64,000 nucleotides of DNA, from assembly GCA_021841005.1 (NCBI GenBank), contig JAKBVZ010000019.1:62001-126000 (forward strand), read 5' to 3'. The translations under genes were made by a program, and so were the position numbers. The notes beneath the pieces were generated by a model. It did no database searches and was not told the DNA's origin. It saw only the letters and a list, made by a program, of their open reading frames with translations. This document shows positions 13,208-40,808 of the stretch, one piece after another (position 1 is the stretch's first letter; every line of letters begins with the position of its first letter). Source of the stretch: Actinomycetes bacterium. Lineage in GTDB: Bacteria > Actinomycetota > Acidimicrobiia > Acidimicrobiales > JAMCPL01.

Positions 13208-13246
13208 GAGCCTCTTGAAAGAGCCTCTTGAAAGAGCCTCTTGAAA
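13208..13246 (+). repeat. Three tandem 13-bp repeats
   Basis: GAGCCTCTTGAAA occurs three times head to tail at 13208, 13221 and 13234. The array lies at the 5' end of the lipoate-ligase-like frame, contains several TTG codons and makes the start of that gene ambiguous. Confidence 0.9.
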
Positions 13247-13269
13247 GAAACGTTTGCGTGCCTTTGAAC

Positions 13270-14124
13270 ATGTGGCAAGTGGTGGAGAGGCGGGGTTCTG
13301 CCGGGGCGCTTCATGAGACGTGGCCCGACCGCTCCGAGCGCGCGTCGCGTACGGTGGCGTTCAGCGAGGTGACCAACGAAGCGCTTGTCATAGGTAGCAT
13401 GCAGCCTCTCGCCAGCAGACAGCCCGATCCTCCTGCGGCATTAAGACAATCTCGTCGATGCGGGTGCGCAAGAAGCACTCTCGCCAGCAGACAGCCCGAT
13501 CCTCCTGCGGCATCCAGCATGAGCAGGGAAGAGCGTTCTACTGATGGTACCCTGGCTGGTACCCATGCCATGCCTGCCGCCATACCTGCCGGGACGAAAT
13601 GCCCTCTGGAGGTGGTCAGGCGCCGTAGTGGCGGCGGGGCGGTCTACGTTGCCCCTGGACAACAGCTCTGGGTAGATATGTGGATTCCGAGGGATGATCC
13701 CCTTTTCGAAGAGGATGTCCTGCGAACATCGATAGTGGCTGGACGGGTGTGGGCTGGTGCCCTAGAGCAGTTGGGAGTGTCCAGGATAGACATTCACGAC
13801 GGGCGGGTGATGCTCGGGCAGTGGGGGGCTCTTGCATGTTTTGCATCACTCGGGCCAGGCGAAGTGCTTACCGACGGGCGCAAGTCGGTAGGTATATCTC
13901 AGCGGCGCGATAGGGATGGTGCGTGGCTCCAGACCATGCTTCCGCTTGTATGGGATCCTGCTTATTGGGTTCCCAACCTGACCTGTGTCGGCATGAGGCA
14001 GGATGATTCCAAGGCCCTAGAGCAATGGCTTATGGATAACGTCGCTGGTCACATCGATATCTCTCTTGGATCGATCGCACGCAATGTTCTGATGGATGTG
14101 ATCATCTCCCATCTCCCGCTGTAG
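13270..14124 (+). CDS. Lipoate-protein ligase A family protein with repeat-bearing insert
   Basis: The protein belongs to the biotin/lipoate A/B ligase family, whose members attach lipoate or a similar acyl group to a lysine of carrier domains. The motif VVRRRSGGGAVYVAPGQQLW is the family nucleotide/lipoyl loop, and GRKSVGISQRRDRDGAWLQT contains the expected active-site lysine segment. Between LVIGSMQ and EVVRRRSGGG, which are normally close, is an insert of about 60 residues containing LASRQPDPPAA twice. ATG 13270 opens at the conserved WQVVERRGSAGALHE; a TTG at 13228 inside the 13-bp repeats is an alternative. Whether it is a true lipoate ligase or a paralogue of unknown substrate is open. 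Confidence 0.78.
   Translation: MWQVVERRGSAGALHETWPDRSERASRTVAFSEVTNEALVIGSMQPLASRQPDPPAALRQSRRCGCARSTLASRQPDPPAASSMSREERSTDGTLAGTHAMPAAIPAGTKCPLEVVRRRSGGGAVYVAPGQQLWVDMWIPRDDPLFEEDVLRTSIVAGRVWAGALEQLGVSRIDIHDGRVMLGQWGALACFASLGPGEVLTDGRKSVGISQRRDRDGAWLQTMLPLVWDPAYWVPNLTCVGMRQDDSKALEQWLMDNVAGHIDISLGSIARNVLMDVIISHLPL
13406..13512 (+). repeat. Pair of 35-bp direct repeats, 72-bp period, inside the lipoate-ligase-like gene
   Basis: The copies at 13406-13440 and 13478-13512 are identical and begin CTCTCGCCAGCAGACAGC. The 37 bases between them are unrelated to the 37 bases that follow, so this is a spaced repeat and not a simple tandem duplication. The period is 24 codons, so both copies encode LASRQPDPPAA in frame. 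Confidence 0.92.
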
Positions 14125-14198
14125 CGCGTCATTATCAAGTTGGTCGCAACCTTACCATCGAGATGGATGTGATCATCTCCCATTTCCCGCTGTAGCGC
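14091..14198 (+). repeat. Pair of 37-bp direct repeats, 71-bp period, over the ligase stop codon
   Basis: The copies at 14091-14127 and 14162-14198 begin GATGGATGTGATCATCTCCC and differ at one base. The first copy contains the last codons and stop (TAG) of the lipoate-ligase-like gene. The second lies in the intergenic region. The 34 bases between them are unique. Confidence 0.9.
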
Positions 14199-18787: not shown

Positions 18788-20374
18788 ATGGCAATGCTGT
18801 TAAGCGCTTTTCTCGACGGGGTCAGGCCGGTCGACATGATAGGCGAAGTGTCAACGGTTCACATATCGTCTGTATCGTATGATTCGCGGGAAGTCCGTGA
18901 TGGAGCCCTGTTCTGCTGCCTAGATGGAACCCGTTACGATGGGCACGAGTTTGCGGGTCTGGCGGTGTCGAATGGGGCATCGGCCCTGCTGGTCGAGAGA
19001 CGTCTGGATATAGCAGTCCCTCAAGTAGTCGTGACGCAAGGCGCTGCAAGGGCGGCCATGGCGGTGATTGCCGCCAATTTTTATGGCAGGCCCTCCGGAT
19101 CCCTCGTCATGTTCGGTGTTACCGGCACCAACGGCAAGACGACGGTAGCTCATATGGTTGCGTCCATATTGCGTGCCGGTGGGTTACGCACATCGGTCAT
19201 CGGAACCCTGGGAGGAGGACGGACAACCCCTGAGTCTGCTGATCTGCAGCGAAGTCTCGCACAAGCGCGAGATTCCGGTTTCAAGGCCGTATCCATGGAG
19301 GTCTCATCCCATGGTATGGTACAGCACAGGGTGGATGCCATACGTTTCCAGGCGGCAGTGTTTACCAACCTCTCCCCCGAACACCTTGATTATCACAAGA
19401 CGATGGATATGTATTTCGCGGCCAAGGCTGCACTGTTTGTCCCGGAGAGAGTCGAGAACGCCATCATCAACGTTGACGATCCGTGGGGGAGGCTGCTCGT
19501 GGAGAGGGCGTCGGGCGTTCCAGTGCTCCGTTACAGTGCAGATGAGGCATCTGAGGTGAGCCAAGATGAGCATGGGAGTTCCTTTTGCTGGAGGGGGATG
19601 CAGGTGAGAATCCCCTTGGCAGGCAGGTACAATGTCCTCAATGCCATAGCCGCCGCCAATGCTGGCCTCGTGCTTGGAGTGGATGAGGACGAGATCGCAG
19701 AGGGACTTTACACGATGGAGCCCGTTCCAGGGCGGTTTGCCCTGTACCGGAGTCCTTCCGGCGGTATCGTGGTGATAGATTACGCGCATACTCCAGACGC
19801 TCTCGAAGCGGTCCTAATGTCGGCTCGGGAGATCATGCACGAGCCCAGTAGGCAGCTTACCTGTGTATTCGGCTGCGGGGGAGATAGAGATGCGAGCAAG
19901 AGGCCCCTGATGGGATCGGTGGCAGCGAGGCTGGCGGATAGGGTTGTGGTGACTTCCGACAACTCCAGGAATGAGAATCCGGTTGTAATTATGGACGAGA
20001 TAGTATCGGGTATCGGTGCAGATGATCGTAACCGCCTAGTGGTGGAGATCGATCGCCGTAAAGCGATCAAGTCTGCTGTTGCGCAACTCCGGGATGGTGA
20101 CGTAGTAGTGGTGGCAGGCAGGGGGCACGAAACCGTCATGGAAGCGGGCGGCAAGTGTATGCATTTCAGTGATGCCGAGGTAGTTACCGGATGCATGGCA
20201 GTGCCGGTCGGTCGCTACGTGAGTGTTCCCGGGGGGTCGTTGTCCGGCGGTGAAGGCCGTTCCTCGGGAGTAGGCACTGACCTGGAAGTGGGTACCGATC
20301 CGGGAGCAGGTGTCTCCGGTAGGTCAACAGAGGGTGGCGCGGGTACCGCCGGAGGAGTGACATGCTCGGATTGA
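18788..20374 (+). CDS. murE: UDP-MurNAc-tripeptide ligase MurE
   Basis: MurE adds the third amino acid to UDP-MurNAc-L-Ala-D-Glu. The ATP loop is VTGTNGKTTVAHM, followed by VSMEVSSHGMVQHR, FTNLSPEHLDYH and VVIDYAHTPDALEAVL. The specificity motif is D391-N-S-R394, followed by NENP. Enzymes using meso-diaminopimelate usually have DNPR; here Pro is Ser but the Arg is kept. GGAAAGG at 18776 is a good ribosome-binding site for ATG 18788; an upstream ATG at 18695 would add 31 residues. The last 50 residues are a Gly/Ser/Thr-rich tail. It overlaps mraY by 13 bp, so murF is not in its usual place. Confidence 0.93.
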   Translation: MAMLLSAFLDGVRPVDMIGEVSTVHISSVSYDSREVRDGALFCCLDGTRYDGHEFAGLAVSNGASALLVERRLDIAVPQVVVTQGAARAAMAVIAANFYGRPSGSLVMFGVTGTNGKTTVAHMVASILRAGGLRTSVIGTLGGGRTTPESADLQRSLAQARDSGFKAVSMEVSSHGMVQHRVDAIRFQAAVFTNLSPEHLDYHKTMDMYFAAKAALFVPERVENAIINVDDPWGRLLVERASGVPVLRYSADEASEVSQDEHGSSFCWRGMQVRIPLAGRYNVLNAIAAANAGLVLGVDEDEIAEGLYTMEPVPGRFALYRSPSGGIVVIDYAHTPDALEAVLMSAREIMHEPSRQLTCVFGCGGDRDASKRPLMGSVAARLADRVVVTSDNSRNENPVVIMDEIVSGIGADDRNRLVVEIDRRKAIKSAVAQLRDGDVVVVAGRGHETVMEAGGKCMHFSDAEVVTGCMAVPVGRYVSVPGGSLSGGEGRSSGVGTDLEVGTDPGAGVSGRSTEGGAGTAGGVTCSD

Positions 20375-21405
20375 TGGTTGCCGGCGGCATGGCACTGATC
20401 GTTGCAGTGTTCTGTACGCCCATCTTGAGGCGCTGGCTGGTGGCCAATTCAATAGGGCAGTACATAAGGGATGACGGTCCCAGCATGCACAGGGCAAAGG
20501 AAGGCACCCCGACCATGGGCGGCATAGTGCTATTCGCTGCGTTGTGCGTTGGATACTTTGTAGCGCATATGGTTACCTCTGTCCGGATGAGCGCCGATGG
20601 CGTGCTGGTTGTCGGGCTTGTAGTGGCATTCGGCCTGATAGGGCTTATCGACGACTGGCTCAAGGTGCATAACAAAAGGAACCTTGGGCTGAACAAGCGG
20701 GCCAAATTTGCAAGCCAGGTGGCTGTTGCACTGCTGTTCGCGGTAGGGTCCGAGAAGTTCGGTCACGCAAGTACTTTCCTGTCTTTTACCCGATGGAACT
20801 CTACGGGGGTAAATCTGGGATCCATAGGTTGGATCGTATGGGTGGCATTGATCGTGGTCGGCTCTTCCAACGCCGTCAATCTGACCGATGGTCTCGATGG
20901 TCTTGCTGCAGGTTCTCTGGCGCTCGTCTTTGCGGTTCTTGCAATTATCGGGTATTGGCAGTTCAGGCATTTCAGCATATACAGGGTGTCATCCTCCCTG
21001 GACTTGAGCTTGGTTGCCGTCGCCCTCGCAGGGGCCTGCGTGGGATTTCTATGGTGGAACGCGGCGCCAGCGCGGATTTTCATGGGCGATACCGGGTCAC
21101 TAGCCATGGGAAGCGGGTTGGCGGGCATTGCCATACTCATGAATTTACAGCTGTTGCTGCCGATCCTGGGAGGGCTGTTTGTCATAGTGACACTTTCAGT
21201 CGTTGTCCAGGTGATCAGCTTCCGGATCTTCAAACGCAGGTTGCTGAAAATGGCTCCCCTTCATCACCATTTCGAACTTTCCGGTTGGCCGGAGTCCACT
21301 GTAATTGTAAGATTCTGGATTATGGCGGGTCTCTTCGCCGCTTTCGGACTGGGGCTTTTCTATGCCGACTACCTGTCGGTTACGAGGCTGTTGTCGAAGG
21401 CATGA
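20362..21405 (+). CDS. mraY: Phospho-N-acetylmuramoyl-pentapeptide transferase MraY
   Basis: MraY transfers phospho-MurNAc-pentapeptide to undecaprenyl phosphate, making lipid I in the membrane. The 347-residue product has about ten membrane segments and the catalytic signatures KEGTPTMGGIV, GLIDDWLK, NAVNLTDGLDGLAAG and FMGDTGSLAMGS, then KMAPLHHHFELSGWPE. The ATG at 20362 lies inside murE; a second ATG at 20374 overlaps the murE stop by one base and could also serve. The mraY stop overlaps the first ATG of the 72-bp repeat array. Confidence 0.96.
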   Translation: MLGLMVAGGMALIVAVFCTPILRRWLVANSIGQYIRDDGPSMHRAKEGTPTMGGIVLFAALCVGYFVAHMVTSVRMSADGVLVVGLVVAFGLIGLIDDWLKVHNKRNLGLNKRAKFASQVAVALLFAVGSEKFGHASTFLSFTRWNSTGVNLGSIGWIVWVALIVVGSSNAVNLTDGLDGLAAGSLALVFAVLAIIGYWQFRHFSIYRVSSSLDLSLVAVALAGACVGFLWWNAAPARIFMGDTGSLAMGSGLAGIAILMNLQLLLPILGGLFVIVTLSVVVQVISFRIFKRRLLKMAPLHHHFELSGWPESTVIVRFWIMAGLFAAFGLGLFYADYLSVTRLLSKA

Positions 21406-21568
21406 AAAGGAATGAGCATGGCAAGTCGTCATACCTACAGATCCGCTGCGGCCACTATGCCGCAGCCCGTGGTATGAAAAGGAATGAGCATGGCAAGTCG
21501 TCATACCTACAGATCCGCTGCGGCCACTATGCCGCAGCCCGTGGTATGAAAAGGACCCAGCATGGCAG
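21402..21568 (+). repeat. 72-bp tandem repeat with hairpin and ribosome-binding site, 2.3 copies
   Basis: Identical copies lie at 21402-21473 and 21474-21545, with a partial third copy from 21546 running into the murD start. Each full unit contains a perfect hairpin, GCTGCGGC-CACTAT-GCCGCAGC (21445-21466 and 21517-21538). Each copy also carries AAAAGGA close before an ATG; in the partial third copy this AAAAGGA is the murD ribosome-binding site. Confidence 0.93.
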
Positions 21569-21572
21569 GTAA
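21402..21572 (+). CDS. Candidate bridging mini-ORF between mraY and murD
   Basis: An open frame of 56 codons starts at an ATG overlapping the mraY stop (ATGA) and ends in a TAA ten bases after the murD ATG begins. It would encode a 24-residue unit beginning MKRNEHGKSSYLQI twice, then MKRTQHGR. It has no hydrophobic segment and resembles no family I know. Its value may lie in carrying ribosomes across the gap, so that murD stays coupled to mraY. It may equally be open only because one open 72-bp unit was copied. Expression is not shown. Confidence 0.35.
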   Translation: MKRNEHGKSSYLQIRCGHYAAARGMKRNEHGKSSYLQIRCGHYAAARGMKRTQHGR

Positions 21573-22950
21573 TCATACAGATGGCCATGTATTGGTATTT
21601 GGAGCCGGTGTCACCGGGCGTGCGGTGGTGGAGGCGATGCTGTCGGAGGGGAAGGACGTCGTACTGGTCGACGATTTCGATGGTATTGCGCCAGAAGTTA
21701 CAGGTAGCGCCAGATTGCAAATAGTGAGAGCACCAGGGCAAGATACCCTTTCCACTCTCATAGACGGAGCCGGTGAGGTGGTGGTGAGCCCAGGGATACC
21801 TCGAAGCCATCCTATCCACCGGATGGCCGCAGGCAAGCTGACCAGCGAGGTCGGCCTTGCCAGGGCGCGCCTGCAGGTTCCTTTCGTGGCCATCACCGGC
21901 ACCAATGGAAAGACCACCGTGGTAACCCTAGTAACATCTATGCTCGAAAAGTCGCACTTCAGGGTGGCGGCGGCAGGCAACATCGGGTTACCACTGATTA
22001 GTGTCATCCACCGCTCGATTGATGTGGTAGTGGCCGAACTCTCGTCATTCCAACTCGCAACGACCAGCGATCTTGCACCCACTGTGGGTGCTTGGCTGAA
22101 CTTCCAGCCTGATCACCTGGATTGGCACACGGATATGGAGGATTACCGTCTATCCAAAGCAAAGATATGGGAAGGCGTTGGGCCAGGTTGCAAGGTGGTG
22201 GTGAACTGGAATGACGAGGTGGTGATGGATGCGGCAAGGCAGGTGGCTGGTACGGGCGCCGAACTGGTCGCATGGGGGAATGGTGACGGGAGCTGGCATC
22301 GTGAGGGCGACCTCATCATCTCTCCCGATGGTGACACACTGGCATCCATCAGAACCTTATATCGTAGCATGCCACATGATGTAGATAACGCTCTTGCTGC
22401 ACTTGCTGTAGCCACTAGTGCAGGAGCAACCTTGGATGGCTGCGCCGAAGCGCTGGCCGGCTTCAACGGGTTACCGCATCGGGTGGAATTGGTTGCTGAT
22501 ATCCGAGGAGTTCGCTATCTGGATGACTCCAAATCCACGACACCTAGTTCGACTGCGGCCGCTCTCGCTGGCTTGGAGGTTGGCAGTGCTGTGCTGATTG
22601 CAGGAGGGCGCAACAAAGGCCTGGATCTTGGAACACTGCGTTCCTGCGCGGATACGCTGAAGGCCGTAGTTGCCATTGGTGAGGCCGCTCATGAAGTGAT
22701 GGTCGCACTGGAAACACTGTGCCCCGTCAAAGTTGCGGGATCCATGGATGAGGCGGTGGCCCTGGCCACAGGTTTTGCCGATCGGGGAGATACTGTCATT
22801 CTATCGCCGGCCTGTGCGTCGTACGATTGGTACAGCTCTTATGCATTACGGGGTGATGACTTCCGGCGATGTGTGCTCGAGTTACAGAGTATCCACGTGT
22901 TGGGCGAGGATCGCAACCGTGGCGTGCCGAATGTATCAGGAGGTAGGTGA
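21562..22950 (+). CDS. murD: UDP-MurNAc-L-alanine:D-glutamate ligase MurD
   Basis: MurD adds D-glutamate to UDP-MurNAc-L-Ala in the cytoplasm. The 462-residue product starts with a Rossmann-like VLVFGAGVTGRAV, has the ATP loop ITGTNGKTTVVTLV, the AELSSFQL and NFQPDHLDWH motifs, and LDDSKSTTPSSTAAAL with IAGGRNKGLDL near the C-terminus. The ATG at 21562 sits 7 bp after AAAAGGA supplied by the repeat unit. The stop overlaps the ftsW GTG. Confidence 0.96.
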   Translation: MAGNHTDGHVLVFGAGVTGRAVVEAMLSEGKDVVLVDDFDGIAPEVTGSARLQIVRAPGQDTLSTLIDGAGEVVVSPGIPRSHPIHRMAAGKLTSEVGLARARLQVPFVAITGTNGKTTVVTLVTSMLEKSHFRVAAAGNIGLPLISVIHRSIDVVVAELSSFQLATTSDLAPTVGAWLNFQPDHLDWHTDMEDYRLSKAKIWEGVGPGCKVVVNWNDEVVMDAARQVAGTGAELVAWGNGDGSWHREGDLIISPDGDTLASIRTLYRSMPHDVDNALAALAVATSAGATLDGCAEALAGFNGLPHRVELVADIRGVRYLDDSKSTTPSSTAAALAGLEVGSAVLIAGGRNKGLDLGTLRSCADTLKAVVAIGEAAHEVMVALETLCPVKVAGSMDEAVALATGFADRGDTVILSPACASYDWYSSYALRGDDFRRCVLELQSIHVLGEDRNRGVPNVSGGR

Positions 22951-39303: not shown

Positions 39304-40437
39304 ATGGCAGGACCTCTTGAAGGGGTGAAGGTGCTGGAACTGGCAGGCATAGGCCCTGCACCATTCTGTTGCATGATGCTTGCCGATGCTGGCGCCGATG
39401 TGCTTCGCGTGGAACGTATAAAGGGCGGATTGACGGGCGGATTGACCAGCAAGGATGGAGACGTGAAGTCAGGCAGCCCGCACTGGGATCTGCTCAACCG
39501 GGGCAGGCGATCTCTGTCGCTTGACCTGAAGGATCCGGCCAATGTGGAACTGGTGCTGAAAGCCGCATCCAAGGCCGACATCTTGGTGGAAGGTTGGCGT
39601 CCAGGTGTGGCGGAACGGCTTGGCGTGGGTCCCGAGGTGTGCATGAAGCGTAATCCCAGGCTCGTGTATGGCAGGATGACCGGTTGGGGGCAGGACGGCC
39701 CCCTGGCGATGCGTGCAGGGCATGACATTGACTACATTGCGATATCCGGCGCCCTTTGGGCTATAGGGAGAAATGGCGAACGGCCGGTTCCTCCCATCAA
39801 TCTTGTGGGTGACTTCGGCGGAGGTGGGATGCTGGCGGCTTTCGGGCTGCTGGCCGCCCTCGTGGAGGCGGGTCGGTCCGGTCAGGGACAGGTGGTGGAT
39901 ATCGCGATGGTCGATGGTGCATCTGTGCTGATGACCATGGTATACGCATTGCGCGAATTCGGCGTATGGCAGGATGACCGGGGTGCGAACCTGCTCGATA
40001 CCGGTGCGCCGTTCTACGAGGTATACGAGACGGCGGATGGCCAGTACATGGCCGTAGGTGCCATCGAGCCGCAGTTCTACGCAGAGCTCCTAAAGGGCCT
40101 TGGGATAGAATCAGATAGCGACTTACCCGGGCAGATGGACAGGAGTCGATGGCCGGAGATGAAGGAGCGCTTTGTCGGGATTTTCAAGACCAGGACTCGC
40201 GCGGAATGGGAGAGTATTTTCGATGGTGTAGATGCGTGCGTGGCGCCGGTGCTCTCGCCGGCTGAGGCGCCCCAGTACCCGCACAACCGGGCAAGGTCCA
40301 CCTATGTGGAACGAGATGGCCAGATCCAACCGGCTCCTGCTCCCAGATTCTCCAGGACGCCGAGCGCAATTGTGCGCCCCGCTCCGCACCCAGGCGCTGG
40401 TGGGGAGGATGCTCTCAGGGAGTGGGGCGTAGCCTGA
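39304..40437 (+). CDS. Alpha-methylacyl-CoA racemase (CaiB/BaiF family)
   Basis: The enzyme inverts the 2-methyl centre of branched acyl-CoAs. The 377-residue product begins MAGPLEGVKVLELAGIGPAPFCCMMLADAGADVLRVER. The catalytic pair known from mycobacterial MCR (His126 and Asp156) corresponds here to H140 in GHDIDYIAISGA and D170 in VGDFGGGGML. The shift of 14 is explained by an insert containing the duplicated GGLTGGLT. AAGGAG lies before the ATG. It sits with two acyl-CoA ligases and a MaoC hydratase, suggesting branched-chain fatty acid or sterol side-chain use. Confidence 0.9.
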   Translation: MAGPLEGVKVLELAGIGPAPFCCMMLADAGADVLRVERIKGGLTGGLTSKDGDVKSGSPHWDLLNRGRRSLSLDLKDPANVELVLKAASKADILVEGWRPGVAERLGVGPEVCMKRNPRLVYGRMTGWGQDGPLAMRAGHDIDYIAISGALWAIGRNGERPVPPINLVGDFGGGGMLAAFGLLAALVEAGRSGQGQVVDIAMVDGASVLMTMVYALREFGVWQDDRGANLLDTGAPFYEVYETADGQYMAVGAIEPQFYAELLKGLGIESDSDLPGQMDRSRWPEMKERFVGIFKTRTRAEWESIFDGVDACVAPVLSPAEAPQYPHNRARSTYVERDGQIQPAPAPRFSRTPSAIVRPAPHPGAGGEDALREWGVA

Positions 40438-40494
40438 GACAGATGATGGGGCGTAGCCTGAGACAGATGATGGAAGCGGCCTGAGACAGATGAT
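40424..40494 (+). repeat. 24-bp repeat, three copies, over the racemase stop codon
   Basis: GGGGCGTAGCCTGAGACAGA opens identical 24-bp units at 40424 and 40448; a diverged 23-bp third copy is at 40472. The first copy carries the last codons and the TGA of the racemase gene, so the later copies contain relics of its end. Confidence 0.9.
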
Positions 40495-40808
40495 GGAAGA
40501 GACAGTGGAACGGTACCCGTGGCAGGTGGTAGCCATGGTTTTCATGGCAGGACGCGTCAGAATATACACAGAGCTTGCAAGCTCGTGCTGATGAACGTGC
40601 TGGTGCACCACGGTATGATGCCACGATACCAGCACGCGGTGAGCATGCCTGAGATGAACGTGCTGGTGCACCACGGTATGATGCCACGGTACCAAACCAG
40701 CATTCCCTACGTGGCGATGAACGTGCTGGTGCACCACGGTATGATGCCACGGTATGCTGTAGGTAACGGATTTGGTTACCATGTCAGATATTGAAAGGGG
40801 CATATGCG
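40438..40808 (+). other. Repeat-rich intergenic region before the acyl-CoA ligase
   Basis: These 371 bases contain the ends of the 24-bp repeats, a unique stretch (40495-40590), and the three-copy 63-bp-period repeat (40591-40750). An open frame, 40519-40794, runs through all three copies and its TGA overlaps the in-frame TTG at 40791 of the ligase frame. No recognised gene is present. Confidence 0.6.
40591..40750 (+). repeat. Three 34-bp repeats at exact 63-bp period
   Basis: ATGAACGTGCTGGTGCACCA begins identical 34-bp copies at 40591, 40654 and 40717; about 8 more bases are partly conserved after each. The spacers of about 21 bp differ. The core includes the palindrome TGGTGCACCA, and in copy 1 CGTGCTGGT pairs with ACCAGCACG. 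The period is 21 codons, so the frame encoding MNVLVHHGMMPRY repeats without interruption. Confidence 0.92.

Follow-up and report, generated by a model that had tools for sequence, protein, structure and literature searches.

The repeat that separates mraY from murD in the window, the 64,000-nucleotide stretch of DNA analysed here, is almost certainly the scar left when a copied fragment was inserted and its target duplicated, and one of many such scars. We consider it likely that the scar arose by off-target spacer integration by Cas1-Cas2, probably by the type I-G Cas4/1-Cas2 complex. The repeat is real, yet it is no murD element.

The repeat lies within the gene order murE-mraY-murD-ftsW, and the names mraY and murD, assigned originally from the sequence, were confirmed by matches to TIGR00445 and TIGR01087 (Table 1). 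The original prediction described identical 72-bp units plus a partial third. That arrangement was found, but the two full units differ at one position, and the third copy comprises 36 nt with 81% identity to copy 1. In each unit, 36 bp copied from the mraY/murD junction at that site (termed T) are followed by a 36-bp insert (termed E). As originally noted, each full unit carries a hairpin with a perfect 8-bp stem, GCTGCGGC-CACTAT-GCCGCAGC, and AAAAGGA is present in all three T copies.

Table 1. Coordinates of the features of the mraY-murD repeat and of two further scars in the window
Feature	Position	Strand	Basis or remark
mraY	20362..21405	+	ORF; TIGR00445, 310 bits
murD	21562..22950	+	ORF; TIGR01087, 346 bits
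Full unit 1 (T + E), 72 bp	21399..21470
Full unit 2 (T + E), 72 bp	21471..21542
T copy 1, 36 nt: mraY stop/ATG overlap, AAAAGGA, copy of murD start	21399..21434	+	direct repeat; single copy at the equivalent site of G004
E copy 1, 36-nt insert with dispersed hairpin	21435..21470	+	member of the hairpin family (77 copies in the genome)
T copy 2, tandem duplicate of T copy 1	21471..21506	+	direct-repeat family
E copy 2	21507..21542	+	direct repeat and hairpin pattern
T copy 3: working murD ribosome-binding site and start	21543..21578	+	81% to copy 1; best match to the G004 murD start
Hairpin 1, 8-bp stem, 6-nt loop	21445..21466	+	sequence; present in RNA minimum-energy structure
Hairpin 2	21517..21538	+	sequence; present in RNA minimum-energy structure
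Open frame of 56 aa running from the mraY stop to a point inside murD; probably a by-product	21402..21572	+	sequence
Mini-ORF of 21 aa that opens in T copy 1 and closes on the following ATGA overlap	21412..21477	+	ORF
Mini-ORF of unit 2, identical to that of unit 1	21484..21549	+	ORF
Second scar: T (36) + unrelated insert TAAGACAATC...AAGCA (36) + T (36), no hairpin	13406..13513	.	exact empty site in G004
Third scar: T (37) + insert (34) + T (37), no hairpin	14091..14198	.	empty in G004

The hairpin is dispersed throughout the genome to which the window belongs (G000; 2.45 Mb in 36 contigs, 94% complete), where the hairpin pattern gave 82 matches representing 77 distinct copies and the reversed control gave none; the repeat is thus well beyond what chance would produce. 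Some sites are tandem, with up to four hairpins spaced at 68-73 bp. The left flank of every copy was aligned with its right flank, and flanks taken from mismatched sites served as the control. Most copies proved to be flanked by a direct repeat of approximately 36-37 nt of purely local sequence, with alignment scores mostly between 44 and 94, whereas 95% of the mismatched-site trials scored 20 or less. The flanking repeat recurred at an offset of 70-74 in 67 of the 77 copies (72 in 39, 71 in 13 and 73 in 11) at targets unrelated to one another; at some sites the length of T deviates, ranging from 28 to 44. The insert itself is a window of approximately 35 nt whose ends float relative to the hairpin core. 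In 8 of 21 testable inserts, at least 9 nt of the outer bases were shared with the flank of another copy, compared with 1.3 expected; in the case of insert L045 and donor L086, what the two share is local target sequence at the donor. These data indicate that new hairpin copies bring with them some of the donor flank.

Hairpins are found, for instance, at tRNA ends, in open intergenic DNA and within genes. By approximate gene calls, 25 of 34 copies were intergenic compared with 9.6% of random positions, a concentration that is expected if most insertions are harmful. At six sites (L082, L050, L051, L067, L101 and L103) the hairpin lies within a longer repeated sequence (GACTACGCCTCCCTGATCCAAGC...), suggesting that the target was itself a repeat family or a gene end, and at two others (L056 and L095) the target resembles the 3' end of a tRNA gene (GTTCGAATCC...), a second copy of which has been left behind. 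A search of Rfam returned one below-threshold match and nothing credible, and the hairpin was not found in a viral contig collection. In a genome contig collection it was found in the record of the closest relative, G004 (JAMCPL01, a sediment actinobacterial MAG), and in a single Roseomonas mucosa sequence that has no flanking repeat and is probably a chance match. Among 59 relatives, true copies were present in G004 only; three near-matches in G046 were without flanking repeats.

The same scars are formed by inserts that have no hairpin. A direct-repeat scan at offsets of 40-150, which covered 864 kb of the 2.45-Mb genome, detected, at offsets of 70-75, 18 scars with the hairpin and 13 without it, and three more at 67-68, with T usually 36-37 and the insert 33-39 in length; the genome holds at least 13 non-hairpin scars of the T-E-T form (offset 71-75). 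Two of these scars are in the window; one lies inside the ORF at 13228-14124 and the other at its 3' end. Elsewhere in the window, a 63-bp tandem repeat of 2.6 copies at 40590-40754, with a T of 39 and an insert of 24, breaks the 72-bp rule and adjoins a 24-bp repeat at 40423-40499.

Donors could be recognized for some of the inserts. The insert at L281 is identical at 37 of 37 positions to C3:70286-70322, and the homology ends exactly at both ends of the insert. The L176 insert has 34/36 identity to C4:29504-29539, and that at L287 matches C34:37572 over approximately 33 nt. A scar in G004 (L236) has a 35-nt insert, whose source sequence occurs in several copies, between T copies that are identical at 36 of 36 positions. 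Arbitrary fragments of fixed length have been copied into the scars. The inserts had no match among phage records, the few known donors shared no consistent PAM, and the targets yielded no strong motif logo.

Comparison with G004 identified the sites as they were before insertion. Its mraY-murD intergenic region is the plain junction ATGAAAAGGGATGGAAATGGCAGGTAATC, with no insert. When the insert and one target copy were removed computationally and the remainder was compared with G004, approximately 10 of 20 other hairpin sites were empty there without a gap, three sites were filled there too, and approximately 9 of 12 tested non-hairpin sites were empty. In a comparison of the two genomes that was not guided by the hairpin, every one of the seven G000 insertions whose overlap with the target reached 20 bp or more represented a net gain of 71-73 bp. 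G004 has scars of its own (five in 400 kb, two with hairpin variants), and two were found in 160 kb of G002, both within 1.7 kb of one 8-kb contig (L262, in C1) of a genome without detectable cas1. The distant controls G005 and G007 contained no scars in 200 kb and at most one weak scar in 400 kb, respectively.

The dimensions of the scars correspond to those of a resident CRISPR system. G000 encodes two adaptation modules, a type I-G Cas4/1 fusion with Cas2 and a type III-B Cas1 with Cas2, and both of its CRISPR arrays have 36-nt repeats. The type I-G system, with its Cas4/1 fusion, is accompanied by a 19-repeat array (L143, C19:1-12000), and the type III-B system, with its own Cas1-Cas2, by a 59-repeat array (L142, C33:1-16000). 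For the I-G array the mean repeat-to-repeat distance is 71.4 bp, and for the III-B array 74.8; the mean scar length is 71.4 for non-hairpin and 71.9 for hairpin scars. By the Mann-Whitney test, P values against the I-G array were 0.51 (non-hairpin) and 0.05 (hairpin), and against the III-B array they were 5e-7 and 8e-14; the scars thus fit the I-G array in length and do not fit the III-B array. Target duplications, mostly 36-37 in non-hairpin scars and 36 at mraY-murD, equal the resident repeat length of 36. The inserts, at approximately 35-36, are of spacer length and were captured from other DNA, as shown by the donors of three inserts in G000 and one in G004.

Cas1-Cas2 inserts a fragment of ruler length and duplicates a target of repeat length, and an off-array scar is therefore expected to look exactly like the T-E-T scars. 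We propose that a Cas1-Cas2-type integrase, most likely the resident I-G Cas4/1-Cas2, would join a fragment of approximately 36 bp to both ends of a target of approximately 36 bp, and that gap repair would then duplicate the target, as it does the repeat in a CRISPR array, to yield T-E-T with a net gain of approximately 72 bp. At mraY-murD the target would have been the gene junction, and the fragment the hairpin, captured and re-inserted dozens of times in the genome. Since T copy 1 is almost the same as T copy 2 and both differ from copy 3, a single old insertion was likely followed by tandem duplication of the T-E unit.

Published work is consistent with such events. Non-canonical integration has been observed upon Cas1-Cas2 overexpression (Nivala 2018, as cited in PMC11788318), Cas1 binds stem-loop single-stranded DNA (PMC9456107), and type I-G Cas4/1 produced a smear in vitro that suggests nonspecific integration (PMC10504553). 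Accessory factors have been proposed to repress off-array integration (PMC9456107), which is a recognized threat to genome integrity (PMC8390005). Structure may be the reason why the hairpin is a favoured insert. We suggest, more tentatively, that the hairpin is a parasite of CRISPR adaptation, which has no transposase, is taken up as a prespacer on account of its structure and spreads as mis-integrated spacers. The hairpin was present in none of the 76 array spacers. Under interference, a spacer that targeted approximately 70 chromosomal sites would kill the cell, so the absence fits the proposal and proves nothing.

A different integrase, or a copy-paste repair activity of the genus that copies fragments of approximately 36 nt and duplicates approximately 36 bp, would make the 36-nt CRISPR repeats coincidental. 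Such an enzyme could explain the scars in two relatives: cas1, cas2 and matching CRISPR repeats were not detected in the G004 and G002 drafts (91-92% completeness), so that in these genomes the systems were lost or unbinned, or else another enzyme acts. It would also agree with the weak resemblance of the targets to CRISPR repeats (z 1.5 and 2.2). Also weighing against Cas1-Cas2 are the missing PAM consensus at the few known donors, the lack of phage matches to the inserts, the lack of the hairpin among the array spacers and the deviating T lengths at some hairpin sites. However, two length rulers (target of approximately 36, insert of approximately 35-36) combined with arbitrary capture are the signature of Cas1-Cas2, the scar lengths are close to those of the I-G array, and most scars are in the genome that has two adaptation modules. 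We regard a different integrase as unlikely, although it is the leading alternative to Cas1-Cas2.

The repeat had originally been interpreted as an in-frame bridge from mraY to murD, and as copy-number-variable coupling or an RNA-processing element that could tune MurD levels. The sequence features on which that interpretation drew were confirmed. The ATG at 21402 overlaps the mraY stop (21403-21405), its frame is open until the TAA at 21570-21572 just inside murD, and the last AAAAGGA, in the partial unit, is 6 nt upstream of the murD ATG. Unit number does vary, with two units here and none in G004, and at another locus four here and one in the relative, although the genomes are drafts and the exact unit number per locus may be wrong. 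The TAA-to-TCG changes in the two upstream T copies, which open the bridging frame, and a modest RNA folding z-score of -2.25 for the repeat would suit a murD element. In contrast, the same insert is found at approximately 70 other, unrelated sites, mostly intergenic and nearly always with a copy of local sequence, and the closest relative does not have it between mraY and murD; the keeping of frame is no property of the element either, as units elsewhere are often 71 or 73 bp. We conclude that a dedicated regulatory or RNA-processing element of murD, selected to tune MurD, is very improbable.

The murD signals are readily accounted for by the position of the target. AAAAGGA and ATG are repeated because T reaches from the mraY stop/ATG overlap across the ribosome-binding site into the first codons of murD, so that every unit brings an ATGA overlap, AAAAGGA and an ATG with it. 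The signals were thus carried along, and the insertion was presumably tolerated. In G004 the overlapping ATG yields an 8-codon ORF, MKRDGNGR*, that ends at the TAA inside murD; here, with TAA changed to TCG in T copies 1 and 2, the frame continues to the original TAA at 21570. From the sequence, the in-frame bridge and the repeated ribosome-binding sites are probably by-products of the scar. Ribosomes may be handed to murD via the bridging frame or the 21-aa mini-ORFs, which may explain why the insertion was tolerated.

A conventional miniature transposon of the MITE or REP-like kind, moved by a transposase and making an unusually long target duplication, would be expected to have a compact palindromic core, many copies (77 here), a target duplication and an intergenic bias, as the hairpin has. 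However, the ends of the insert are not fixed but float around the core and carry donor flank, the same scars arise from inserts without the hairpin, and no autonomous copy was seen; we give this explanation little credence. A MIRU-like translational-coupling element that inserts at operon stop/start overlaps, which the unit on the ATGA overlap at mraY-murD and the small ORFs overlapping stop and start might suggest, is the least plausible reading, as other sites are at tRNA ends, in open intergenic DNA and in gene interiors, units may be 71 or 73 bp, and the ORF start is supplied by the local target rather than by the insert. Membership of the MIRU family was our first hypothesis and was dropped because nearly every copy duplicates local DNA. 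We also rejected a reading in which the hairpin is an orphan CRISPR repeat and T a self-spacer, as the ends of the insert float and such repeats were not seen in any array, and a canonical CRISPR array, as the duplicated part is different at every site rather than constant.

Off-target CRISPR adaptation, which is viewed as a hazard against which cells protect themselves, has been a subject of work in laboratory systems. A natural record of it seems to be preserved in this genome, with dozens of scars, donors and empty sites, and with a scar length that agrees with one of two resident CRISPR systems. If the proposal is true, CRISPR adaptation would be a source of chromosomal insertion mutations, repeat families and two-repeat mini-arrays, the last of which are usually dismissed as doubtful by CRISPR finders. 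If the hairpin is indeed a parasite, it would represent a class of mobile element that relies for its movement on the machinery that writes CRISPR memory.

Among known systems, the 'neo-CRISPR' loci of off-target integration (Nivala et al. 2018, as described in PMC11788318 and PMC9456107) likewise have a spacer-sized insert outside the array and a duplicated target of repeat size. According to those accounts they arose upon Cas1-Cas2 overexpression, whereas here there are dozens of natural, fixed scars, one insert has been amplified to 77 copies, and the donors are partly self DNA. The genome's own type I-G array shares with the scars a duplicated unit of 36 nt, an insert of approximately 35 nt and a spacing of approximately 71-72 bp; the scars, in contrast, duplicate different local DNA at each site, nearly always have one insert and have no crRNA repeat. 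Mycobacterial interspersed repetitive units (MIRU; PMC12548453) are similar as short intergenic repeats of tandem copy number and, at mraY-murD, in having small ORFs that overlap the flanking stop and start, but half of the scar repeat is local, its sites extend beyond start codons and stop/start overlaps, and its unit length is not kept in frame. Finally, REP and MITE palindromic elements resemble the family as dispersed short palindromes with an intergenic bias, and the scars differ from them in the target duplication of approximately 36 bp, the floating ends of the insert and the presence of other inserts in the same scars.
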